From the NCBI RefSeq assembly GCF_001304615.2, contig NZ_CP032683.1, positions 2,356,001 to 2,420,000 of the forward strand: DNA of 64,000 bases. Direction: 5' to 3'. A model generated the notes under the pieces. The model did no database searches and was not told where the DNA came from. It saw only the letters and a list, made by a program, of their open reading frames with translations. The stretch's first letter is position 1; every line of letters begins with the position of its first letter. The position numbers and the translations under genes are program-made. The DNA is from Methanosarcina flavescens (GTDB lineage Archaea > Halobacteriota > Methanosarcinia > Methanosarcinales > Methanosarcinaceae). Of this stretch, positions 28,215 through 44,873 are shown in pieces.

Positions 28215-29186
28215 ATGAATAATGAGCTTTCCCCCGATAAAAGCTCTCAGTGCATGGTTCAATGCGAAGAAAAAACATGCAAGGAGGTTACAGTCCCTCA
28301 AAACATAACTGTGGTTCTCCCTGCATATAATGAGGAAGTTGCCATTGGAAGCATTGTCCTGCTAACATGCAAGTACGCAGACAACGTGATCGTGGTCGAT
28401 GACGGCAGTTCAGACCGCACAGCCGACGTTGCCAGGAAAGCGGGCGCTGAGGTCATTGTTCACGAAGTGAATAAGGGAAAAGGAAGGGCTCTTAAAACAG
28501 GCTTTACAGCAGCAGTCGCTCTGGGCGCAGACATTATTGTGACCATGGACTCCGACGGCCAGCACAACCCGGCTGATATCCCGAAACTGGTTGAACCCAT
28601 CCTGAAAGGTGAAGCCGACATGGTCAACGGCAGCCGGTACCTCAATGGTCTGGGCAAGAATACCCCAGCCTACCGCCGCGTGGGTCAGACCATTCTCGAC
28701 GAAGTAACGAACCTCAACTCCGGCCTCCATATAACCGATTCCCAGAGCGGTTTTCGTGCGTTTGCCGCTTCTACAAAAGGCGTTTTTCGCTTCACTGCCA
28801 AAGGCATGGCAATTGAAAGCGAAATGTTAGCCGACGCCGGCCGCCACGGCCTCCGCATAACCGAAGTTGAAATCAGTGTCCGTTACGATGTTGACGGATC
28901 GACAGAAAACCCAATAAAACACGGTTTTGGGGTTCTTATGATGGTTCTGAAAGATATCGAATTCAACAGGCCTCTCTACTACCTGACATTACCTGGATCA
29001 ATTCTTGGAATTATCGGGCTTATTATGGGTGTCATTTTCCTTCGCGAGTTCATCCTGGGAAAAAACCTGTATTTCGGGCCTACCATGCTCATGGTTCTGT
29101 GTATTGTTATAGGGAGTTTTATGGCTTTGATGGGTATTATGCTGCATTCGGTATCTACGATTCTGAGGGATGCGCTGAAAGGTTAA
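28215..29186 (+). CDS. GT2 glycosyltransferase, DPM1-like, tandem copy A (intact)
   Basis: The 323-residue protein matches the 6412 gene in every motif: VVLPAYNEEVAIGSIV, VIVVDDGSSDRTADVARKAG, TMDSDGQHNPADIPKLVE, QSGFRAFAAST and KGMAIESEMLADAG. A C-terminal membrane pair follows (LYYLTLPGSILGIIGLIMGV and GPTMLMVLCIVIGSFMALMG). The start is fixed by AGAGGTTG nine bases ahead of ATG 28215, a spacing repeated in copy B. It likely forms a polyprenyl-phosphate sugar donor. The coding region is less AT-rich than the flanks and nearly identical in parts to copy B. Confidence 0.9.
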   Translation: MNNELSPDKSSQCMVQCEEKTCKEVTVPQNITVVLPAYNEEVAIGSIVLLTCKYADNVIVVDDGSSDRTADVARKAGAEVIVHEVNKGKGRALKTGFTAAVALGADIIVTMDSDGQHNPADIPKLVEPILKGEADMVNGSRYLNGLGKNTPAYRRVGQTILDEVTNLNSGLHITDSQSGFRAFAASTKGVFRFTAKGMAIESEMLADAGRHGLRITEVEISVRYDVDGSTENPIKHGFGVLMMVLKDIEFNRPLYYLTLPGSILGIIGLIMGVIFLREFILGKNLYFGPTMLMVLCIVIGSFMALMGIMLHSVSTILRDALKG

Positions 29187-29920: not shown

Positions 29921-30891
29921 ATGAATAATGAGCTTAACACCGGTAAAAGTTCTCAGTGCATGATTCAATGCGAGGAAAAAGCATACAAGGAGGTTACAGT
30001 CCCTCAGAACATAACTGTGGTTCTTCCTGCTTATAATGAGGAGGTCTCTATCGGAAGCATAGTCCTGCTAACTAGCCAGTATGCAGACAACGTGATCGTG
30101 GTCGATGACGGCAGTTCGGACCGCACAGCCGAGGTCGCCGGGAAAGCAGGCGCCGAAGTTGTTCGCCATGAAACGAACCGCGGAAAAGGCGCAGCTCTCA
30201 AAACCGGCTTTACAGCCGCAGCCGACCTGGGTGCAGACGTCATTGTGACCATGGACTCCGACGGTCAGCACAACCCCGCCGAGATCCCGCGGCTGGTTGC
30301 CCCAATCCTCAAAGGCGAAGCCGACATGGTCAACGGCAGCCGATACCTCAACGGCCTTGACAAGAATACCCCAGCCTACCGCCGCGTCGGGCAGACAATC
30401 CTCGACGGAGTAACAAATCTCAACTCCGGCCTCCGGATCACAGATTCCCAGAGCGGCTTCCGAGCCTTCTCAGCCTCAACAAAAGACGTCTTCCGCTTCA
30501 CTGCCAAAGGCATGGCAATTGAAAGCGAAATGCTAGCCGACGCCGGTCGCCACGGCCTTCGCATAACCGAAGTCGAAATCGGCGTCCGTTACGATGTTGA
30601 CGGATCAACAGAAAACCCAATAAAACACGGTCTTGGGGTTCTTATGATGGTTCTGAAAGATATCGAATTCAATAGGCCTCTTTACTACCTGACATTACCT
30701 GGATCAATTCTTGGAATTATCGGGCTTATTATGGGTGCCATTTTCCTTCACGATTTCACACTGGGAAAAGGCCTGTACTTTGGCCTACCATGCTCATGGT
30801 TCTGTGTATTGTTGTGGGGATGTTTATGGCTTTGATGGGTATTATGCTGCATTCGGTATCTACGATTCTGAGGGATGCGCTGAAGGGTTAA
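29921..30891 (+). pseudogene. GT2 glycosyltransferase, DPM1-like, tandem copy B (frameshifted near the end)
   Basis: The frame is open for 304 residues and then departs from copy A. Copy A reads TTC GGG CCT ACC ATG; here TTT GGC CTA CCA TGC shows one missing G at about 30782-30783. Restoring it gives an uninterrupted 323-codon gene ending at TAA 30891, the same length as copy A. The catalytic domain is intact (DDGSSDRT, DSDGQH, QSGFRAF) but the second membrane helix is scrambled (LPCSWFCVLLWGCLWL). The enzyme might still work if the altered tail inserts. A sequencing error or a slippery site is the alternative. Confidence 0.85.
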
Positions 30892-30981: not shown

Positions 30982-32031
30982 ATGCCTCGAAAGAAATCTG
31001 TAAGCATAGTCATTCTTTCATACAACAACAGGGAAGACTTGGAAGAATGCATCCCTTCTTTAATGTCTCAAACATATCAAGATTTTGAGATTATTGTAGT
31101 GGACAATGCATCTATGGACGGCAGTGAAGAATTCATAAGAACCAACTATCCCATGATAAAAGTAGTTCAGACAGGAAAAAACCTTGGATACCCTGCAGGT
31201 AATAACGCAGGCTTTGAGGTTGCAGAAGGTGAATATATTGTAGTTGTGAATCCAGATACTGTTGCAGATCCAGAATGGCTTGCTGAACTAATTAAGCCCT
31301 TAGAACGCGACCATACAATTGCAGCTACTACTTCAAAAATCCTGATCTATTACCAGAAAGACAGAATAAACACATGTGCAAACACAAGCCACCTTACTGG
31401 ACTTACCTTTTGTAGAGGACTCAATAAGTCTGTGGATGAATTCAACAACTTCCAGGCAGTAGGTGCAGTCTCAGGTTGTTCCTTTGCAATAAGACGTGAT
31501 GTTTTAAAGTATATCAACGGATTTGACCCTGACTTTTTCCTTTATATGGAAGATGCGGACCTTTCATGGAGAATACGTTTTGCGGGCGGTAAAATTCTGT
31601 ATGTTCCTGAGTCCATAATATATCATAAATTCAATCTGTCAATAGCTCCCTGGAAAGAGTTCTACCTTGAAAGAAACCGTTATTTAATTTTATTGAAAAA
31701 TCTCGATACGAAAACATTGCTATTGCTAACTCCTGCACTTGCAATAACTGAAATTGTAACAATGAGCCATGCTGTTTTAAATGGCCCCAAATACGTAAAA
31801 AGCAAATTGATGGCTTATTTATGGATAATAAAGCATATTAGAGCTATTTCAATAAAAAGAGACGAAACCCTTTCTAAAAAAAGAGTCACAGATAAGGAGT
31901 TTTTTGGACTGCTAGACTGGAGTATTCCTTTTGAACAGGTTATTGAAAACCCTATAATGAAAAGAACGACTGATATTATTTTCAATTCTTTTTATGCATT
32001 GAATATGAAAGTAATAAGAAGAATAGTCTAA
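30982..32031 (+). CDS. GT2 family glycosyltransferase, rhamnosyltransferase-like
   Basis: The 349-residue protein has the GT-A start SIVILSYNNREDLEECI, then VVDNASMDGSEEFI, the acidic pair in VVNPDTVADPEWL and the acceptor-side motif FFLYMEDADLSWRIRFAGG. This pattern is shared with rhamnosyl- and related transferases (WbbL-like). A hydrophobic patch near residues 240-262 suggests membrane association. It is the first gene of a coupled plus-strand operon reaching 36676. The dTDP-rhamnose genes at 41767-44873 make a deoxyhexose donor plausible. Confidence 0.88.
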   Translation: MPRKKSVSIVILSYNNREDLEECIPSLMSQTYQDFEIIVVDNASMDGSEEFIRTNYPMIKVVQTGKNLGYPAGNNAGFEVAEGEYIVVVNPDTVADPEWLAELIKPLERDHTIAATTSKILIYYQKDRINTCANTSHLTGLTFCRGLNKSVDEFNNFQAVGAVSGCSFAIRRDVLKYINGFDPDFFLYMEDADLSWRIRFAGGKILYVPESIIYHKFNLSIAPWKEFYLERNRYLILLKNLDTKTLLLLTPALAITEIVTMSHAVLNGPKYVKSKLMAYLWIIKHIRAISIKRDETLSKKRVTDKEFFGLLDWSIPFEQVIENPIMKRTTDIIFNSFYALNMKVIRRIV

Positions 32032-32116
32032 TTAAAAATCACAAAAACAGGGTTGATTACTGTACTGCTGCTTTACTTTGATTATTTTTTTGAAAGACTA
32101 CTGGATGGATATAAAA

Positions 32117-32557
32117 ATGAAAATATGTCTTACATGTTCCCATGGCGGTCATCTTACAGAAATTCTCCAACTAATGGATGCGTTCCAGGGTCAAGATATT
32201 TTTTTCATAACATATGAAGGAGCCAGAACAAGTGAGCTCCCAAAAAAATATACTCTAAAAAATCTGGGAAAAAATCCTGTAAGATTCTTGCTCAGTATTC
32301 CTAAAGTATTCAATATTCTGCTGCGCGAAAAACCAGATATTGTTATTTCAACTGGTTCTGAAATTGCAATCCCTGTCTTTTATACTGCAAAATTGCTTCG
32401 GATAAAAACCATGTTTATTGAAAGCCTTTGCAGAGTTGAGGAACCTTCGCTAAGCGGAAAAATAGTCTATCCCGTTTCAGATGTCTTTTTAGTCCAGTGG
32501 AAACAGTTACTTTCCAAATTCGGGAAAAAAGCACAGTACTGGGGGAATGTCCTTTGA
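32117..32557 (+). CDS. Alg14-like subunit, membrane anchor of a GT28-type GlcNAc transferase
   Basis: ATG 32117 gives 146 residues and opens with MKICLTCSHGGHLTEILQLM, the standard start of Alg14/PssD proteins; TTG 32078 and ATG 32105 are alternatives. The GGH loop, the IVISTGSEIAIPVFYTAKLL helix and IESLCRVEEPSLSGKIVYPV are family hallmarks. Alg14 recruits Alg13 to form one two-part UDP-sugar transferase that works on a lipid carrier. The stop overlaps the Alg13-like start (CTTTGA), fitting 1:1 synthesis. Confidence 0.88.
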   Translation: MKICLTCSHGGHLTEILQLMDAFQGQDIFFITYEGARTSELPKKYTLKNLGKNPVRFLLSIPKVFNILLREKPDIVISTGSEIAIPVFYTAKLLRIKTMFIESLCRVEEPSLSGKIVYPVSDVFLVQWKQLLSKFGKKAQYWGNVL

Positions 32558-33021
32558 TTTTTGTGACTGTTGGGAGCCATTATCAGGGTTTTGACAGATT
32601 AATTAAAAAAGTAGATGAGATTGCAGGAAAAATTGATGAAGATGTAGTAATGCAAATCGGAAATACAAAGTATAAGCCTGTAAATGCAGAGTATTTTGAA
32701 TTCGCGGAATACTCTAAGGTTCAAAAACTTAATTCAAGTGCTAGAATCGTAATCAGCCATGCAGGTGTTGGATCAATTTTAACCGCATTGGAACAAAAAA
32801 CTCATCTTATAATTGTTCCCCGCTTAAAAAAATATGGGGAAGTTGTAGATGACCACCAGTTACAAATTGCAAAAGAAATGTCAGATAATTCTAATGTTAC
32901 GGTTATCTATGATCTAGAAGAACTTGAAGGATCCTTAAAAACAGATTTTTCTTTCACAAAAGACTGTAACAGGAACAAACTTGTTCAATCTCTAAAAAGA
33001 TACATCTATTCAATTTCTTAA
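32554..33021 (+). CDS. Alg13-like catalytic subunit of a GT28-type transferase
   Basis: TTG 32554 overlaps the Alg14 stop by 4 nt and has GGGGGA seven bases ahead; the conserved start IFVTVGSHYQGFDRL begins right after it. The 155-residue protein matches the C-terminal half of MurG/Alg13 with VVISHAGVGSILTALE (the donor-binding H-A-G) and LIIVPRLKKYGEVVDDHQ. It needs the Alg14-like partner encoded just upstream. An open frame further upstream (32497) is the Alg14 gene read in another frame. Confidence 0.88.
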   Translation: MIFVTVGSHYQGFDRLIKKVDEIAGKIDEDVVMQIGNTKYKPVNAEYFEFAEYSKVQKLNSSARIVISHAGVGSILTALEQKTHLIIVPRLKKYGEVVDDHQLQIAKEMSDNSNVTVIYDLEELEGSLKTDFSFTKDCNRNKLVQSLKRYIYSIS

Positions 33022-33044: not shown

Positions 33045-34178
33045 ATGAGAATCTGTGTAATTACATCTGCGAAATTCCCACCTGAAGAAGGAATCGGTAA
33101 TTATATTTATAATATGTCAAAGGAATTTATTCGAAAAGGGCATCAAGTTACTGTCATTACACGAGGGTCTTCCAAAGCTCAAGAAGAAAACTTTGAAGGT
33201 ATCCGATTATATAGAGCTCCGTTTTTTCCTTTATATCCCCTTCACGTACAAGTTCACGGAGTATTTGTAAATAAATTGTTCGCTTCAATTAAGTCTGATT
33301 TTGATGTAGTACATTACCATACTCCTCTACCTCCACCTATTAAAACAAATCTTCCAACAGTTACTACTGTACACACTCCTATGAAAACTGATACTGGAAT
33401 GGTAGAGCTGGTAAATCCATTTTCTCTAGCAGTAAAGCTGCAAGGAAAGGTAAGCTGTCTGATTGAATCAAGATTGTTTAATATTTCTGATATAATTACA
33501 TCAGTTGCAAGCTCTGTATCTCAAGAACTAGGCGAATATGGGTTAAATCCAGGTGATGTAGAAGTCATAGGCAACGGTGTAGATGAGAATTTGTTCTGTC
33601 CTATCCAGAATAAGACAAATGAGAAATATATTCTATATACAGGCCGGTTAAGTTACAGAAAAGGACTAGTTGATTTTATTGAATGTGGTATTAGTGTTTG
33701 TTCACGATATCCAGATGTCAATTTCAAACTTACAGGAAAAGGACCTTTATTTGAGAAATTAAAAGGAATTGTTCACGAGTCCGGCTATCAGGATAGGTTT
33801 GAATTTTTGGGTCATGTCGAGAAAAGTAAGTTAATCGAATTATATCAAAATGCAACAATATTCGTGTTGCCATCTCATTATGAAGGTCTCCCCACTACAC
33901 TGCTTGAAGCAATGTCCTGTGGTCTACCTGTTGTTGCAACTGCAGTAAGCGGGAATCTAGATGTTATAGAATCAGGAAAAAATGGAATTCTTGTTCCTAT
34001 AAAATCACCTGACAGAATGGCTGAAGCGGTATCTTTTCTTTTGGATAACGAAAAGTTGAGAACAGAACTTGGAATTGCAGCAAGAAAAACAATTGAACAA
34101 AAATTTACATGGAGTGCAATCTCTGATAAAATTCTTCGCTGCTATTACTCTATTTGTAAGGAGCCGGTTGCAATATGA
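33045..34178 (+). CDS. GT4 family glycosyltransferase
   Basis: The 377-residue GT-B enzyme has the N-terminal motif SAKFPPEEGIGNYIYNMSKEF typical of GT4, seen here as FPPEEGIGNYI. The donor side has YTGRLSYRKGLVDFI, GKGPLFEKLK and the EX7E motif HYEGLPTTLLEAMSCG. It uses a nucleotide sugar to extend a cytoplasmic lipid-linked glycan. Its stop overlaps the next ATG (ATGA at 34175), a translational coupling repeated down the operon. Confidence 0.9.
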   Translation: MRICVITSAKFPPEEGIGNYIYNMSKEFIRKGHQVTVITRGSSKAQEENFEGIRLYRAPFFPLYPLHVQVHGVFVNKLFASIKSDFDVVHYHTPLPPPIKTNLPTVTTVHTPMKTDTGMVELVNPFSLAVKLQGKVSCLIESRLFNISDIITSVASSVSQELGEYGLNPGDVEVIGNGVDENLFCPIQNKTNEKYILYTGRLSYRKGLVDFIECGISVCSRYPDVNFKLTGKGPLFEKLKGIVHESGYQDRFEFLGHVEKSKLIELYQNATIFVLPSHYEGLPTTLLEAMSCGLPVVATAVSGNLDVIESGKNGILVPIKSPDRMAEAVSFLLDNEKLRTELGIAARKTIEQKFTWSAISDKILRCYYSICKEPVAI

Positions 34179-35404
34179 AAGTCTGTATCGTATGTTATGG
34201 ATTAACCGAAAATAATATCCGGCTTCAGCCCTGGAGATACTTCTCTGAAATTGCAATTGGCCTTTCCAAGAAAAACTTTGATGTTACGATTATTACCGAT
34301 GGTTCTTCAGAGGGACAAAATCTTACTGGCATTCCAATAAGGCATGTAAAAAAGCTGAGGAAATTGCCATTCCAATCTAATACGGAATTGGTCTCTCTAA
34401 TTAAATCCGAACAACCAGACATAATTTTATGGTCAGTCACGGCTCTTGATTATCTCTATTTGAATATATTTAAACAAATAGGCATCCCTGTAATTGGATT
34501 GTTTACTGGACCCATTTACAAACCCTCAGATATAACAAGAATCGGGACTCACGAAATACTTAAAAATATAAAATTCTTATCAGCACACATTCTTTACGCT
34601 TCCTTGCCATCTTTTTTTATTCGTGGGCTTGTGAATTCTTTACATTGCAATAAAATATTTGTCATGAGCCGTAAAAATAAAGAGATAATTATAGAGAAGG
34701 GCGGGGATATACGCAAGGTTGCTCATGTTCCAGCAGGCATAGAAGAGTCTGATTTTATGAAATCTAATGAATTTAATTCAATTATCAGCAAATATAAGCT
34801 TGACAAAAATTCATTTAATATTCTCTACTTTGGGTCTCCTCTGAGCATCAGAGGTACAGATTCCCTTATTAAAGCAGTTTCAAAAGTAAGAACTCAACAT
34901 CCTTTGATTAAACTTATAATTCTTTCGAGGCGCAGAGACGGTGAATTGAGTCATGAAGAAATGGAGATTCAGGACTTAATTCTAAAACTCGGCTTAGAAA
35001 AAAATGTACAGATAATCTCCGGCTTCCTGGATAAAGATGAAGTGAAAGAATTCATTACTTTTTCCAGCTTGATCGCTTTACCCTTTAAAATTGTCCCATC
35101 TGACGTGCCAACAAGTATTCTTGAATCTATGGCTATGGGAAAAACTGTCATTTCTACAGCTCTTGACGGTATACCCGAGTTACTTGAAGACGGTAGAGGG
35201 TTTATTGTCCAACCAAATAATGACGAAGATCTAGCTGAGAAAATTAGTTTTTTAATTCAAAACCGAGATTTGACAAAGAGAACTGGTAAAAAAGCTGCCT
35301 TGTATATGCAAACATACCCGAGATGGCATGACGTGTCAGAACATGTAGTATCTGAGATTAAACAAGTTTTAGGCAGAAGATCAATAAGCAAGGTGGGTTT
35401 ATGA
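34175..35404 (+). CDS. GT4 family glycosyltransferase
   Basis: The 409-residue protein has a Rossmann N-terminal domain (MKVCIVCYGLTENN) and a GT4 C-terminal domain. Motifs are LYFGSPLSIRGTDSLIKAV, the variant donor site PFKIVPSDVPTSILESMAMG and TALDGIPELLEDG. The usual first Glu of EX7E is replaced around SDVP, so the donor pocket differs from classic members. It overlaps the upstream gene by ATGA and the downstream gene the same way. It very probably works with its neighbours on one glycan. Confidence 0.86.
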   Translation: MKVCIVCYGLTENNIRLQPWRYFSEIAIGLSKKNFDVTIITDGSSEGQNLTGIPIRHVKKLRKLPFQSNTELVSLIKSEQPDIILWSVTALDYLYLNIFKQIGIPVIGLFTGPIYKPSDITRIGTHEILKNIKFLSAHILYASLPSFFIRGLVNSLHCNKIFVMSRKNKEIIIEKGGDIRKVAHVPAGIEESDFMKSNEFNSIISKYKLDKNSFNILYFGSPLSIRGTDSLIKAVSKVRTQHPLIKLIILSRRRDGELSHEEMEIQDLILKLGLEKNVQIISGFLDKDEVKEFITFSSLIALPFKIVPSDVPTSILESMAMGKTVISTALDGIPELLEDGRGFIVQPNNDEDLAEKISFLIQNRDLTKRTGKKAALYMQTYPRWHDVSEHVVSEIKQVLGRRSISKVGL

Positions 35405-36051
35405 TCCAAAAGCCTATGTTCATATGTATTACAGGGATTGACGGGGTAGGAAAAACAACTCATGTCAATTTAATTCTAGAACACTTGCGTAAAAAAGGCA
35501 TCAAATGTCAATATAAATGGCTTCGTTTTCATCATTTATTCTCACTGCCATTACTAGCTTTTTGCAGAGTTGCAGGCTATACACGTGTGTCTACTCTTGG
35601 GGGTTCTCAAAAGTGCTCATACCATGAGTTCTACAAGTCAAGATTTATCTCGACAATATATCCCTGGATTTTATTTCTGGATACCCTATTATTTACAATC
35701 ATAAAGGTCTATATCCCAATGCTCTTTGGTACAACTATTGTTTGTGATCGTTTTGTATATGATACGTTAATAGATGTAGCTGTAGCAACTAAAGATCATG
35801 AAATATACAGAAAACCTGTTGGTAAATTATTCCTTAAACTAATACCGAAAAATGCACATTTTGTAATGCTGGATCTTGATAAATCTACTATATTTTCTAG
35901 AAGACCTGAACTGAAAGACGATCTAACTTTTAACGAGCGTTATGCTTTATATGAGAGTTTATCGTCCCAACTTAATATTCATGTTGAAAAAAACTGTGAT
36001 AATGTGACCCGAGTAAACTGTTCGATATTAAGTAAACTATTTAGGTGTTAA
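35401..36051 (+). CDS. Thymidylate-kinase-like P-loop protein
   Basis: The 216-residue protein has a Walker A motif GIDGVGKTTHV at residue 12, the TMK-type DRFVYDT (near 117-123) and a LID-like Arg pair (SRRPELK). Sequence between 45 and 105 is more hydrophobic than in true dTMP kinases (LFSLPLLAFCRVAG, LFLDTLLFTIIK). Similar proteins occur in archaeal glycan clusters with unknown substrates. Housekeeping dTMP kinase is possible but unlikely in an operon of transferases. It overlaps its predecessor by ATGA. Confidence 0.75.
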   Translation: MIQKPMFICITGIDGVGKTTHVNLILEHLRKKGIKCQYKWLRFHHLFSLPLLAFCRVAGYTRVSTLGGSQKCSYHEFYKSRFISTIYPWILFLDTLLFTIIKVYIPMLFGTTIVCDRFVYDTLIDVAVATKDHEIYRKPVGKLFLKLIPKNAHFVMLDLDKSTIFSRRPELKDDLTFNERYALYESLSSQLNIHVEKNCDNVTRVNCSILSKLFRC

Positions 36052-36052
36052 T

Positions 36053-36676
36053 ATGGCAAGAAAAATATATGCGAATATAAACCTAGGACCTTTAACACCA
36101 ATTTTTAGATTTAAAATTGTGATTATTCTTACAAATTGGTTATTTCAGGGAATATTGTATGCGGATAAAACAGAGAAAATTTTCAAACTATGTCTTGATG
36201 CAATTTTTACCTTTATAATATATAAAATTGTTTTAGGCCTAGGCATCCATATTAGTTTACTAGAGGCTTTCTTAATATCGCATACATTTAACTGGATATT
36301 TAATGGGCAACTATTTGCATTAGCGAAAAATTTTGGCATTGTGCATAACGATCCTGAAAAAATAATTGATTATGCTTATGGAATTAAAGAGAGAGCTTCA
36401 GGAGAAAAAAGCATTAACAGTGTAATTGTGTATGGCAGTCTTGTAAGGAGTGAAATTAAAAAGACTTCAGATCTCGATTTAAGAATTATTAGAAAAAAAG
36501 GTTTATTAAACGGATTAAGAGCATCTCTTTTTGGATTTAAAGAACGAAGTAGGGCATTCTTCCATCAATTCCCTCTCGACATGTACGTTGTAGATAGTCC
36601 CAAGCATTTATTGAAAATGAGATCAGACGAGGAGCCACTTGTACTTTATGATACTGATAGAGTTTTGAATAAATAG
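36053..36676 (+). CDS. Membrane-linked nucleotidyltransferase-domain protein
   Basis: The 207-residue protein begins with two likely membrane helices (about 46-72 and 75-92). The C-terminal half has a pol-beta-type nucleotidyltransferase motif: VIVYGSLVRSEIKKTSDLDLRII (G-S then D-x-D near 126-145). A later DMYVVDS could be the third Asp. Such domains add NMP to proteins, sugars or antibiotics. Membrane segments on a minimal NTase are unusual. It begins 1 nt after the kinase-like gene and closes the operon. Confidence 0.7.
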   Translation: MARKIYANINLGPLTPIFRFKIVIILTNWLFQGILYADKTEKIFKLCLDAIFTFIIYKIVLGLGIHISLLEAFLISHTFNWIFNGQLFALAKNFGIVHNDPEKIIDYAYGIKERASGEKSINSVIVYGSLVRSEIKKTSDLDLRIIRKKGLLNGLRASLFGFKERSRAFFHQFPLDMYVVDSPKHLLKMRSDEEPLVLYDTDRVLNK

Positions 36677-36870: not shown

Positions 36871-38424
36871 ATGGCCAGGTTACATAAAATATGCACTGCA
36901 ATGTTATTGTTTATATTTTCTCTATTGCCATTTATTCTATATTCAAAAAATAGTATTATAGATCCTTTTTTACTACAACACGTTTCAAATCTAATTTTAA
37001 ATAGAGATGTTGGTAATGTAGATTTTGTTGGTGCAAATCTTATTTATATAAAAGGATTCGGAGTAATGTTATTAATTTTAGAAAAAATTACAGGAATTAA
37101 TTTACAAACTCTTCAATTCTGTGTGATTGTAGGTCCAATCTTCTTAATCAGTTATTATACTCTCTCAAGAGAATTTACTAGATCAAATATTCATTCTCTC
37201 CTTTTAATGACTACATTAGCCTTCGGATTTGCTACCTCATACTATAGCGTTTGGCCACATGGATGGGGCTTCACTCTTTACATTATTTTTGTCTATTTAT
37301 ATTTAAAACTTATATCCAATAGTGTATTAATAATAAAGGCAAGATACATTATTTTACTATTAATTGTTTTTGCTGCTACTAATTTTTATTCATATACGGC
37401 TGAAGTTTGGATGATTATATTTTCAATTATAGTTAATTTTTTAATTTTACTTTATTCGCATGCTTATAATAAAAATTTAAAAAATTATTTGACGCAAAAT
37501 ATATTAATAGTATTCATAACACTCTTTCTTATCTTTAATGATATAGCCTTTAATTCGTATCTACCAAAGATAAAGTTCAATGCAATATATGACTCGGCGC
37601 TTTCATTTCTTCATCCATTTTTTAGTTTTTTAGGTAGTGTTGTAACAGAGCAGTACAAATATGCGTACCATCCAGAGTCTCCTAAATTATTGGTTTTAAT
37701 TAATGCTTTAATATTAGTTCTGTTAGTGTTACCAGTTTTAGTATCCATTTTTTTTGATATTAAGAATTTACTTAATAAAGACTTTAACGTCGACTTTGTC
37801 AAAACTTCTATTATTAAATATCCTCTTGTTGTAGTTGGTTTGGCAGATACTATTATATATTCTTTGGTAGGTGTCTTCTTTTTGAGATATATTCTCTTTA
37901 TGTTTCCAATATTAGCCGTCGCTTCCGTAACTCGTTTTGAAGCAAAAAGCAAACAAAGATTCATAACTTTATTCGTATGTTGTATTTTACTCTTATCTAT
38001 CTTTTCTTTTTGTTGGAATTGGTCTTTGGACTTAAAGAACACGTCTAAGTCTCAATATAAAGAGTTCAACTATGGGGCGAATTGGATTTATAATAATGGT
38101 ATCAATACGCAAATTCTATCAGATCATTATACTGTTTCGTTATATCAAATTACATTTGCAGAAATGGGAGATAAATTGGATGGCAGGTACTACTCAGAAG
38201 AAGATTTCTACCATTTAGTAGACCCAAATTTTTTGGAACGTAATGATGGTTATTTCAAAAATTACTATGTTATAATTAACCAAGAATTTAAAAACAAAAA
38301 AACGTGGGCTGGTGGTTGGAATGACTTTACCCCTATTGTCATTCATGAGCATAATATTGAACGCAATATAAACTTAAATAAAATTTATGATGATAGGATC
38401 ACTTCTATTTTTAGAAGTTCCTAA
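36871..38424 (+). CDS. Polytopic membrane protein, possible GT-C glycosyltransferase
   Basis: The 517-residue protein has around ten to twelve helices and a hydrophilic C-terminal tail from about residue 400. An early luminal loop contains SNLILNRDVGNVDFVGANL; the acidic residues there resemble the first-loop acid of GT-C enzymes. It resembles the 8663 protein in topology but not in sequence. The gene stands after a 195-bp AT-rich gap and is convergent with the GT2 gene ending at 38933. Role inferred only from topology and setting. Confidence 0.68.
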   Translation: MARLHKICTAMLLFIFSLLPFILYSKNSIIDPFLLQHVSNLILNRDVGNVDFVGANLIYIKGFGVMLLILEKITGINLQTLQFCVIVGPIFLISYYTLSREFTRSNIHSLLLMTTLAFGFATSYYSVWPHGWGFTLYIIFVYLYLKLISNSVLIIKARYIILLLIVFAATNFYSYTAEVWMIIFSIIVNFLILLYSHAYNKNLKNYLTQNILIVFITLFLIFNDIAFNSYLPKIKFNAIYDSALSFLHPFFSFLGSVVTEQYKYAYHPESPKLLVLINALILVLLVLPVLVSIFFDIKNLLNKDFNVDFVKTSIIKYPLVVVGLADTIIYSLVGVFFLRYILFMFPILAVASVTRFEAKSKQRFITLFVCCILLLSIFSFCWNWSLDLKNTSKSQYKEFNYGANWIYNNGINTQILSDHYTVSLYQITFAEMGDKLDGRYYSEEDFYHLVDPNFLERNDGYFKNYYVIINQEFKNKKTWAGGWNDFTPIVIHEHNIERNINLNKIYDDRITSIFRSS

Positions 38425-41766: not shown

Positions 41767-42501
41767 TTAGAAAAAGCCCTCTCTATGTGGGCTATTTGAT
41801 CTTTCCTTCTGAATCATCAGGCTGGCTCTCAACAAACTCTCAAATGTTCCGGCGTCACTCCAGAACCCTTTGAATATCCTGTACTCCATAACCTCCTTAT
41901 TTACATAGTAATTATTTACGTCTGTTATCTCAAGTTCTCCTCTTCGAGAAGGCTTTAGTGTTTTAATTACATCAAAAACACCAGAGTCATAAATATAAAG
42001 TCCTGTAACCGCGAAATTGGATTTTGGTTCTCTTGGCTTTTCTTCGATGTCTACTACTTTCTCACCCTTTAGTTCTGCAACTCCAAACCTGTAAGCGTCA
42101 GGCACTTCTTTCAGGAAAATTTTGGCACCGGTTTTGAAACTTTTGACATCTTCTTTTATATTGTCCTGGAAGATATTGTCGCCTAAAATTACAGTTACGC
42201 TGTCTCCATCAACAAAATCTTTTGCTAGATAGAGTGCCTGGGCAATTCCTCCAGCCTGTTCCTGGATCTCATAGGTAAAATGTACTCCGTGATCTGCCCC
42301 TGAGCCTAAAAGTTCAAGAAAATGTCCTGCGTGCCCTTTGCCTGAGACTATCATTATATCTTTTATTCCGGCACTTATCAGAGTCTCAAGTGGGTAGTAA
42401 ATCATTGGTTTGTCGTAAACTGGCAAAAGATGCTTGTTTGTAACTTTAGTCAGAGGGTAGAGTCTGCTACCTGTGCCGCCTGCAAGTATTACGCCTTTCA
42501 T
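41767..42501 (-). CDS. rfbA: Glucose-1-phosphate thymidylyltransferase
   Basis: The 244-residue protein has the nucleotidyltransferase signature GVILAGGTGSRLYPLTK, PVYDKPMIYYPLETL and VILGDNIFQ (the metal-binding Asp). It makes dTDP-glucose from glucose-1-phosphate and dTTP, the first step to dTDP-L-rhamnose. It is shorter than the usual bacterial RmlA (about 290 residues), as in many archaeal versions, and lacks the C-terminal allosteric part. The ATG overlaps the rfbD stop by 4 nt. Confidence 0.93.
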   Translation of the reverse strand: MKGVILAGGTGSRLYPLTKVTNKHLLPVYDKPMIYYPLETLISAGIKDIMIVSGKGHAGHFLELLGSGADHGVHFTYEIQEQAGGIAQALYLAKDFVDGDSVTVILGDNIFQDNIKEDVKSFKTGAKIFLKEVPDAYRFGVAELKGEKVVDIEEKPREPKSNFAVTGLYIYDSGVFDVIKTLKPSRRGELEITDVNNYYVNKEVMEYRIFKGFWSDAGTFESLLRASLMIQKERSNSPHREGFF

Positions 42502-43307
42502 ATATTTCTCTCCTTCAAATAGGCTTCAAGTGCTTCTTTCCAGTGCCTCATAGGTTCAGTTTTGGTGTTTGCAAGAACTGAATACTTCGGTCTTTTTGCT
42601 TTTCTTGAGAATTCTTCACTTGTACAGGGAAGTACGTTATCAATAATAGAAGAGGCAAATTCGTACCAGGAACAGACCCCGTCATTTGTAATGTGATAAA
42701 TTCCGGGTTCAAGTTCAATTATCTCCTTTACTCTGGCAGCCAGGTCTATTGTGTAGGTAGGTTTGCCGAACTGGTCGTTGACTACCTTTACAGTATCCAT
42801 TTCTCTGGATAATCTCAGCATGGTCTCAACGAAATTTTTCCCGTGAGTACCAAAAAGCCAGGAAATTCTAATGATCCTGTAATCGCCCATACATTCAATG
42901 ATTCTCCTCTCACCAAGAAGCTTTGAACGTCCATAGACATTAATCGGGTTTGGAGTGTCGGATTCTGCATATTCTTTCTTAGAACCATCAAAAATATAGT
43001 CAGTACTGAAATGAACCAGTTTAGCTCCAGCAATAGAGCAGGCTTCTGCAATATTTCCAGGCCCATTTCCGTTTACTTCATACGCCAGTTCCTGGTTATC
43101 CTCGCAGCCATCTACATCAGTATAGGCAGCAGCATTGATCACTACATCTGGACTGATTTCCCTGATAGCTTTCAGAACATGCTCCCGGCTTGTGATATCG
43201 AGGTCTTTGTGAGTAAACTTAACTGCATCAGGAAAAACTTTGCAAAGGTCTGATCCAAGCATCCCGCTGGAACCGATGATCAGCGTTTTAATGGCTCCCA
43301 CCACCAT
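42498..43307 (-). CDS. rfbD: dTDP-4-dehydrorhamnose reductase
   Basis: An SDR-fold enzyme with the nucleotide motif LIIGSSGMLGSDL, STDYIFDG and the catalytic YGRSK. It reduces dTDP-4-keto-L-rhamnose to dTDP-L-rhamnose, the last step. The start is uncertain: ATG 43325 and 43307 or GTG 43304/43301 lie ahead of the conserved KTLIIGSS. The SD-like GGTGGTGGGAG directly precedes an in-frame ATT at 43292, where homologues have Met. It overlaps the end of rfbB by about 28 nt and rfbA by 4 nt. Confidence 0.92.
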   Translation of the reverse strand: MVVGAIKTLIIGSSGMLGSDLCKVFPDAVKFTHKDLDITSREHVLKAIREISPDVVINAAAYTDVDGCEDNQELAYEVNGNGPGNIAEACSIAGAKLVHFSTDYIFDGSKKEYAESDTPNPINVYGRSKLLGERRIIECMGDYRIIRISWLFGTHGKNFVETMLRLSREMDTVKVVNDQFGKPTYTIDLAARVKEIIELEPGIYHITNDGVCSWYEFASSIIDNVLPCTSEEFSRKAKRPKYSVLANTKTEPMRHWKEALEAYLKERNI

Positions 43308-44245
43308 CGATTTTCTACATACCACCTGACTGTCTGTTCCAGAGCTGCATCAAAATTATATTTGGGTTTCCAGCCCATTTTCTCCAGCTTGCTGCCGTCG
43401 AGCGAATATCTGAAATCGTGGCCCTTCCGGTCTTCAACATATTCGATTGAAGATTCGTCTTTGCCGAGCATTTTAAGAAGGCGGTAAGTAATTTCGAGGT
43501 TTGTAAGTTCGTTTCCGCCGTCTATGTTGTAGATTTCTCCGCTATTGCCGTTGTGAAGGACAAAATCTACTGCAGAACAATGATCTTCGACATAAATCCA
43601 GTCCCGAACATTAAGACCGGTCCCATAGACAGGTACCTTTTTCCCTTCCATCAACCTGCTGATGAAAAAAGGAATTAGTTTCTCAGGGTACTGATATGGC
43701 CCGAAGTTGTTCGTACATCGGGTTATGCAAACGGGCAGACCATAGGTTGTATAGTAGGACATTGCAAGGAGATCTGAGCCTGCTTTGCTTGAAGAATAGG
43801 GGCTTGAAGGATTCAGGTTATCGGTCTCGGTAAAGGAACCCTCCACTGTGCTTCCATACACCTCATCAGTTGAAACATGAATGAACTTTTTTATATTATT
43901 TGCAAGTGCGCTCTGGAGAAGGGTATTTGTCCCAAGCACATTTGTTCTGACGAAAACCGAACCATCCTCTATTGACCGGTCAACATGGCTTTCGGCTGCG
44001 AAATGGACAACCTGATCTGCTTCCTTCATTACTTCATTGACGATAAGAGGGTCGCAGATATCGCCTTTGACAAAAGAATAATTCGGATTATTTTCAACAT
44101 CTTTTAGGTTGGTTAGGTTTCCTGCATATGTCAGTTTATCAAGATTTACAATTTGATAATCTGGATATTTTTCCAGCATATAATGTATGAAATTGCTGCC
44201 TATAAATCCGCAGCCGCCAGTAACCAACAGTTTCAATTTAGTCAC
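43280..44245 (-). CDS. rfbB: dTDP-glucose 4,6-dehydratase
   Basis: The 321-residue SDR enzyme has the NAD motif VTGGCGFIGSNFIHYML, VSTDEVYG and the catalytic YSSSKAGSDLL, plus RCTNNFGPYQYPEKLIP. It converts dTDP-glucose to dTDP-4-keto-6-deoxyglucose, the second step to rhamnose and the branch point for other deoxysugars. It lies between rfbC and rfbD in the operon. The length fits the family. Confidence 0.95.
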   Translation of the reverse strand: MTKLKLLVTGGCGFIGSNFIHYMLEKYPDYQIVNLDKLTYAGNLTNLKDVENNPNYSFVKGDICDPLIVNEVMKEADQVVHFAAESHVDRSIEDGSVFVRTNVLGTNTLLQSALANNIKKFIHVSTDEVYGSTVEGSFTETDNLNPSSPYSSSKAGSDLLAMSYYTTYGLPVCITRCTNNFGPYQYPEKLIPFFISRLMEGKKVPVYGTGLNVRDWIYVEDHCSAVDFVLHNGNSGEIYNIDGGNELTNLEITYRLLKMLGKDESSIEYVEDRKGHDFRYSLDGSKLEKMGWKPKYNFDAALEQTVRWYVENRWWWEPLKR

Positions 44246-44321
44246 CTTTTTGTCACGTGCATTTATTATATCTGTTTTTATCCTATGGTTGGTTATAGAA
44301 CTTAGTTGAAAACTTTAAATA

Positions 44322-44873
44322 TTAAAAATTCATTTTAGCATTTCCAAATTCTGGCAGGAGTTTGTCTTTCTCTGAAAGTTTTATGTCTTTCTCAGGGACT
44401 TTCCAGTCAATTCTTAAGGAAGAATCATTGTAAATTATGCCAGCTTCAGCTTCAGGGTGATAGTATTCATCACATTTGTACGTAAAAACTGCAGTTTCGC
44501 TTAGGACGGAAAAACCGTGAGCAAAGCCTTTTGGGATTAAAAATTGTCTTTTGTTCTCTGCGGAAAGTTCTACCCCTACCCATTCTCCAAAAGTAGGTGA
44601 ATTTTTTCTCAGGTCTACGGCAACGTCATAAACTTTTCCTTTGAGAACTCTCACAAGTTTTGCCTGGCTGTAAGGGGCTAACTGGTAGTGAAGTCCCCGG
44701 ATAACTCCATACGAAGATTTGGATTCATTGTCCTGAACGAAGTTATACTGTTTTCCCGTTAACACCTCCAGCTTTTTCTTATTGTAACTCTCAAAAAAAT
44801 AGCCGCGGTCGTCTGTGAATATCTTTGGTTCTATTATCACGAGATCTTCTATTTTGGTTTTTATCAGATTCAT
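44322..44873 (-). CDS. rfbC: dTDP-4-dehydrorhamnose 3,5-epimerase
   Basis: A 183-residue cupin with the catalytic His in GVIRGLHYQ (His62) and the motifs FTDDRGYFFESY, YDVAVDLRKNSPTFG and FLIPKGFAHGF. It epimerises dTDP-4-keto-6-deoxyglucose at C3 and C5, giving the L-configuration. It is the first gene of the minus-strand rfb operon; a 76-nt gap separates it from rfbB. A divergent promoter region faces the pgi gene. Confidence 0.95.
   Translation of the reverse strand: MNLIKTKIEDLVIIEPKIFTDDRGYFFESYNKKKLEVLTGKQYNFVQDNESKSSYGVIRGLHYQLAPYSQAKLVRVLKGKVYDVAVDLRKNSPTFGEWVGVELSAENKRQFLIPKGFAHGFSVLSETAVFTYKCDEYYHPEAEAGIIYNDSSLRIDWKVPEKDIKLSEKDKLLPEFGNAKMNF

Follow-up and report, generated by a model that had tools for sequence, protein, structure and literature searches.

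Two adjoining genes of Methanosarcina flavescens, encoding a TMPK-fold kinase (35401–36051, + strand, 216 aa) and a membrane-anchored pol-β nucleotidyltransferase (NTase; 36053–36676, + strand, 207 aa), are genetically coupled within a glycan operon, and their pairing recurs above chance in archaea and bacteria. The window is the whole 64,000-nucleotide stretch of DNA analysed, and it belongs to a genome assembled as one contig of 3.28 Mb. Both folds are already known. Pfam, NCBIfam, PHROGs, and PADLOC offer no specific functional name for the membrane NTase family, for the kinase that partners it, or for the operon shared by the two, and none of these resources gave a specific function for either protein. 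This agrees with the first-pass annotation of the DNA, which had seen here a step with no named pathway, and no paper describing the kinase-NTase pair was found in the open-licence PMC literature.

The preferred reading, to which slightly less than an even chance is given, is that the two enzymes together make up a phospho-decoration module in a pathway for polysaccharides or lipid-linked glycans, where the kinase adds a phosphate and the NTase then performs a transfer; for two apparently intact catalysts inherited together in glycan operons, this is the simplest reading. We infer the substrate, the order of the reactions, and the transferred group as follows. The kinase would spend ATP on phosphorylating a glycan intermediate bound to the membrane, at a hydroxyl that belongs either to a sugar within a polyprenyl-linked chain or to the carrier lipid. 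The NTase, which a hairpin of two helices carrying conserved polar residues keeps membrane-bound, would next draw on an activated donor (an NTP giving NMP, or a nucleotide donor giving an X-phosphate or a sugar) and transfer the group onto the kinase-made phosphate or a neighbouring hydroxyl, and the end product would be a phosphodiester-type decoration or cap. If this is true, the succession of kinase and membrane NTase would put a name to an enzymatic step in making the phosphate-bearing surface glycans of archaea and bacteria, glycan clusters would lose their misleading “thymidylate kinase” labels, and a small expressible two-protein system would become available for studying how PsmN-like and NTP_transf_5-like enzymes work.

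The Glycan Operon and Its Plasmid Counterpart

The two open reading frames and the 1-nt gap between them lie exactly where the first-pass annotation had placed them. They are preceded on the same strand by three GT2 glycosyltransferase genes, then by genes for PssD/Alg14-like and PssE/Alg13-like glycosyltransferase subunits, and then by two GT4 genes. With their counterparts on the Herpetosiphon aurantiacus plasmid pHAU01, these include GT2 at 29921–30835 (Haur_5098, 49% identity), GT2 at 30982–32031 (Haur_5097, 41%), PssD/Alg14-like at 32078–32557 and PssE/Alg13-like at 32497–33021 (both assigned by family-profile and pHAU01 comparison), GT4 at 33045–34178 (Haur_5094, 41.5%), and GT4 at 34175–35404, whose last 4 nt are shared with the beginning of the kinase gene; all are on the + strand. 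The GT2 genes at 28215–29186 and 29921–30835 are near-duplicates, the second of which differs at the C-terminus and is maybe frameshifted there, and the PssD and PssE frames overlap by about 60 nt (32497–32557) when PssE is taken to begin at its GTG codon. Sigma-70 and terminator scans stayed at shuffle level (50 sites against a shuffle mean of 47.2, and 5 terminators against 6.9), archaeal promoters being outside their coverage.

Downstream of the pair, 195 bp further on the same strand, a multi-pass membrane protein without a Pfam match is encoded at 36871–38424; its similarity to Haur_5091, which follows the pair in Herpetosiphon, is weak (20% identity, E 3e-6). On the opposite strand, past this frame, a GT2 gene and rmlA/D/B/C-like genes (41767–44873) are located. 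The glycosyltransferase and rml-like neighbours indicate a polysaccharide or lipid-linked glycan locus. Thus the glycan operon proposed in the first-pass annotation is borne out, while the closing position that it gave to the pair is doubtful, as the frame at 36871–38424 may extend the operon.

This setting bears on the possibility that an activated precursor is made by the pair, in which case a free sugar or alditol would be phosphorylated by the kinase and then turned by the NTase into an NDP-derivative for the neighbouring glycosyltransferases. Sugar salvage usually consists of a kinase plus a nucleotidylyltransferase, and the location amid glycosyltransferase genes would suit such a role; however, the NTase is membrane-anchored and of pol-β type. 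Sugar nucleotidylyltransferases, among them the product of the RmlA-like gene at 41767–42501, fall into a different family (PF00483), and the precursor role is considered distinctly unlikely.

A search of 72,556 plasmids with the kinase matched a single record, pHAU01, where the order GT2-GT2-PssD-PssE-GT4-GT4-kinase-NTase is that of the window. Haur_5098 to Haur_5093 match the window GT2, GT2, PssD, PssE, GT4, and GT4 in order at 27–49% identity, and a large membrane protein weakly similar to that of the window lies 3′ of the plasmid pair. It was the kinase that led to this plasmid; the NTase came to light next to it afterwards, as an open reading frame (L058, 8575–9231) between Haur_5092 and Haur_5091 that scores 117 bits to the family profile. 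Most of this frame falls into a 590-bp gap after Haur_5092 in the gene table used, from which the NTase is absent; the table is incomplete and the original record may still annotate it. Judged by gene order and protein similarity, the glycan operon including the pair travels as a unit.

The Kinase

The best Pfam match of the window kinase is Thymidylate_kin (PF02223) with 24.9 bits, just below the cut-off of 27, while the TIGR00041 score of 36.5 bits (30.1 in a second scan) is far from the equivalog cut-off of 83.25, and the match is confined to the P-loop region. The AlphaFold model (pLDDT 90.6) aligns almost end to end with dTMP kinases, the best structural match being Sulfolobus dTMP kinase 4rzx_A (Z 19.5, rmsd 2.6, 185 residues); the predicted structure is a full TMPK fold. 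In addition to the fold, it shares with dTMP kinases the P-loop GxDGxGKT (GIDGVGKTT, residues 12–20) and the DR motif (D116-R117), and alignment finds both motifs common to the kinase family and the Tmk of the same genome. Unlike dTMP kinases, it lies below both curated cut-offs, it lacks the TREP and AYQG segments, which we take to be Tmk signatures and which are missing in all 10 kinases aligned with the genome's own Tmk, and it carries W40/R42 and H75xF77; the family-specific residues of the window kinase are W40/R42, H75/F77/S80, D121, and D125. Across the 11 loci described below G12, D14, G15, G17, K18, T19, and R117 are always kept and D116 is kept in 10, while the family's own residues W40, R42, L51, R56, G59, F77, S80, D94, D121, and D125 are present in all.

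The first-pass annotation had left itself open to refutation by a dTMP-specific kinase in a genome with no other tmk; in fact a canonical tmk (150.3 bits) is encoded at G000:C1:1735205-1735786. Since the cell has this separate enzyme, the window kinase is not its dTMP kinase and a dTMP kinase role is unnecessary for it, so the housekeeping Tmk assignment was rejected on the cut-off, the canonical gene, and the absent segments. The lack of TREP and AYQG along with the family's own conserved residues suggests that the substrate is probably other than dTMP. These facts also weigh on the explanation that a diverged kinase of dTMP or of another NMP is encoded here for local nucleotide supply, e.g., for dTDP-sugar synthesis: although the fold and the nearby rmlABCD-like dTDP-sugar genes would agree with it, the TIGR00041 score, the canonical tmk, and the missing segments all speak against it, making it very unlikely.

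The description of a hydrophobic thymidylate-kinase-like protein was right as to the fold; its hydrophobic stretch is located in the model within the long helix 81–108 of the TMPK core and is not conserved. The hydrophobic peak is present only in archaeal and Pelagibacteraceae copies, while in the four Flavobacteriaceae-order kinases no 19-residue stretch has a mean hydropathy as high as 1.4. Because these relatives do without it, the stretch is not a conserved membrane segment; the kinase as a membrane protein was therefore rejected, and the kinase itself is probably not membrane-embedded.

The Membrane NTase

The NTase passes the Pfam cut-off of NTP_transf_2 (PF01909; 21.7 bits against 21) and stays just below that of PF18765 (26.0 against 26.9). 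Structure prediction, which had been suggested as a check of the active site, gave for residues 101–207 a minimal pol-β core fold matching LinB best (Z 11.1, rmsd 2.7, 105 aligned residues), then ANT(4′) (Z 10.4), with MNT structures also among the fold matches; Foldseek was weaker, with a best E of only 2.2e-3. The catalytic motifs are G128-S129, D140/D142, and the third carboxylate D176. Ahead of the core the model contains helices 14–31, 39–62, and 69–93, the last two hydrophobic and forming a two-pass hairpin (approximately 39–93), and relatives likewise have hydrophobic stretches ahead of the catalytic core, so that the earlier description of a pol-β-type NTase with N-terminal helices is upheld.

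Among the 11 loci D140/D142 are always kept, D176 is kept in 10 and replaced by E in one, and the GS motif is kept in 8, GG taking its place in G547, G548, and G636, which are three of the four copies from the Flavobacteriaceae order. From the conservation of the catalytic residues in both families the kinase and the NTase look catalytically intact. Since W29, Q32, E41, and H77 in the membrane part are invariant in all 11 copies, this part is probably more than an anchor, which suggests that it helps to bind the substrate. LinB, ANT(4′), and MNT (PF01909/PF18765) thus resemble the window NTase in the core fold and in GS...DxD with the third carboxylate, but the latter differs by the N-terminal two-pass hairpin with its invariant residues, by the conserved N153 and PL(D) segments, and by ending at the core.

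The MNT structures, together with weak matches to the MntA and PADLOC PDC-S09 models, might be read as a sign that the NTase is an MNT-type antitoxin or defence NTase whose kinase neighbour is incidental. However, these matches touch the catalytic core only, the MntA score (NF047752) is 16.4 bits against an NCBIfam cut-off of 60, and the membrane hairpin and operon context are kept across phyla, and such an origin is extremely improbable.

Conservation of the Pair

NTase and profile searches matched 3 of 59, 5 of 237, 11 of 392, 2 of 395, and 1 of 197 genomes, in sets that overlap and include the query genomes. A scan of genome contigs found 5 NTase loci, where an earlier scan with a single sequence as query had given no match. 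After removal of duplicates and of seven core-only matches, 11 distinct full-length membrane-NTase loci were counted. The core-only matches (L006 of G085 and L046–L051, scoring 17 to 29 bits against the family profile) were left out: in the NTase frames of L006, L046, L047, L048, L050, and L051 the 19-mer hydropathy never exceeds 1.13, L049 is a 99-aa core-only match (27.9 bits) with no matching frame of at least 70 aa in a later scan, and no kinase match was found in the open reading frames of these seven loci.

The 11 loci span one archaeal and three bacterial phylum-level groups: the window, G152, G014, G021, and G369 are archaeal, and the bacterial members are G546, G547, and G548 (Flavobacteriaceae), G636 (of the same order as G546), G549 (Pelagibacteraceae), and pHAU01 (Chloroflexota). 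The claim that the two genes belong together was exposed to a neighbourhood search, and the pair proved conserved: the kinase is present at all 11 loci and adjoins the NTase at 10, two genes lying between them in the Pelagibacteraceae locus (L040). Of 392 archaeal-phylum genomes, 5 have a kinase scoring above 300 bits, and it is in exactly these 5 that the membrane NTase occurs. The kinase follows a related GT4 gene at all 5 archaeal loci, on pHAU01, and, at 25% identity, in L040. No relatives were found in the viral contigs and phage records searched. The rare and scattered occurrence of the pair agrees with horizontal transfer. Kinase and NTase identities correlate over 10 loci (Mantel r 0.75; 0 of 2000 permutations), a value that the split between archaea and the Flavobacteriaceae order alone could drive and that is therefore no proof of pairing.

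Compared with the window, G152 has GT4, kinase, and NTase identities of 55%, 74%, and 67%, and G014, of the genus Methanosarcina, has 73%, 75%, and only 33%. The divergent NTase beside a conserved kinase in G014 implies that the partners are exchangeable and may act independently. This leads to the main rival, itself rather unlikely, that two independent modifications of the same polysaccharide are made, the kinase acting at one position and the NTase on a hydroxyl elsewhere, with co-inheritance through the shared repeat unit. LinB and ANT(4′), the closest NTase structures, modify hydroxyls and do not need prior phosphorylation, which agrees with this rival as do the exchange in G014 and the separated genes of L040; the pairing at every membrane-NTase locus and the kinase/NTP_transf_5-like fusions described below point instead to direct partnership.

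Related Kinases and Known Systems

With the kinase profile, 30 places in 24 of the 392 archaeal-phylum genomes were found at E 1e-12 or better; 5 of them score above 300 bits and all others at most 150.5. A partner (membrane NTase, other NTase, or PF01663) accompanies the kinase at 24 of the 30 places, a count uncorrected for how often NTases or phosphodiesterases adjoin arbitrary genes of such operons. It does not equal 24 independent events, because a single genus group (G246, G255, G264, G272, and G278) contributes 10 of the 30 places. The membrane NTase is the partner at 5 places and an NTP_transf_5-like protein at 8, while L067, L068, L071, L082, L084, and L087 have neither partner type.

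The NTP_transf_5-like partner is adjacent in L069, L070, and L080, one gene off in L086, and fused in L073, L075, L079, and L081, which are natural fusions of both domain orders. Only L075 and L080 pass the PF14907 cut-off, which L073, L079, and L081 do not reach; L069, L070, and L086 were called by BLAST to the domain of L073. NTP_transf_5 (PF14907) resembles the window system in having the same kind of kinase, a glycan-operon setting, and an NTase partner; it differs in that the window NTase is membrane-bound and has no PF14907 match at E ≤ 1, and it is itself uncharacterised.

A PF01663 phosphodiesterase is the partner at 11 places, by scan above the cut-off in L072, L074, L077, L078, L083, L085, L090, and L091 and by BLAST in L076, L088, and L089, which makes a PF01663 neighbour the second recurrent partnership of TMPK-like kinases. 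In L026 a glycan-operon TMPK-like kinase also adjoins a PF01663 phosphodiesterase/nucleotide pyrophosphatase-like protein.

In passages of PMC9266682 and PMC7533575 on pseudomycoidin knock-outs, PsmK is described as phosphorylating the C-terminal Ser and PsmN as needed to add one or two hexoses, and nucleotidylation followed by the action of a host glycosyltransferase is, per review, not excluded. As there portrayed, PsmK/PsmN resembles the present pair in combining a kinase gene and an NTase-family gene with sequential action on one target, and differs in its peptide substrate and in its kinase, since a passage of PMC7533575 describes lasso-cluster kinases of this sort as HPr-kinase type; the likeness drawn here is one of description. 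By analogy only, it may be regarded as the nearest tested chemistry.

Several points are counted against the sequential phosphate-then-transfer model: the NTase exchange in G014, GG in 3 of 11 NTases, E for the third carboxylate in one, the gene separation in L040, the partnerless 6 of 30 places, and a D-I/V-D-I domain of some kinase fusions that is not shown to be related. On the doubtful side stands the wider proposal that a mobile pathway shared by archaea and bacteria would use a kinase derived from TMPK, along with a pol-β NTase integral to the membrane, to produce nucleotidyl- or phosphodiester-capped lipid-linked glycans as a branch of a broader partner rule between such kinases and NTases or phosphodiesterases.

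The D-I/V-D-I domain, a putative NTase by eye only, has no Pfam match, and hhalign of its copies from L030, L033, and L059–L061 with the NTase gave a probability of 0.5%, which does not show a relation. It occurs in the kinase fusions of L033 and L034, and as an N-terminal domain fused to TMPK-like kinases of polysaccharide clusters in L030 (6240–7610), L059 (4275–5672), L060 (4109–5482), and L061 (4530–5627).
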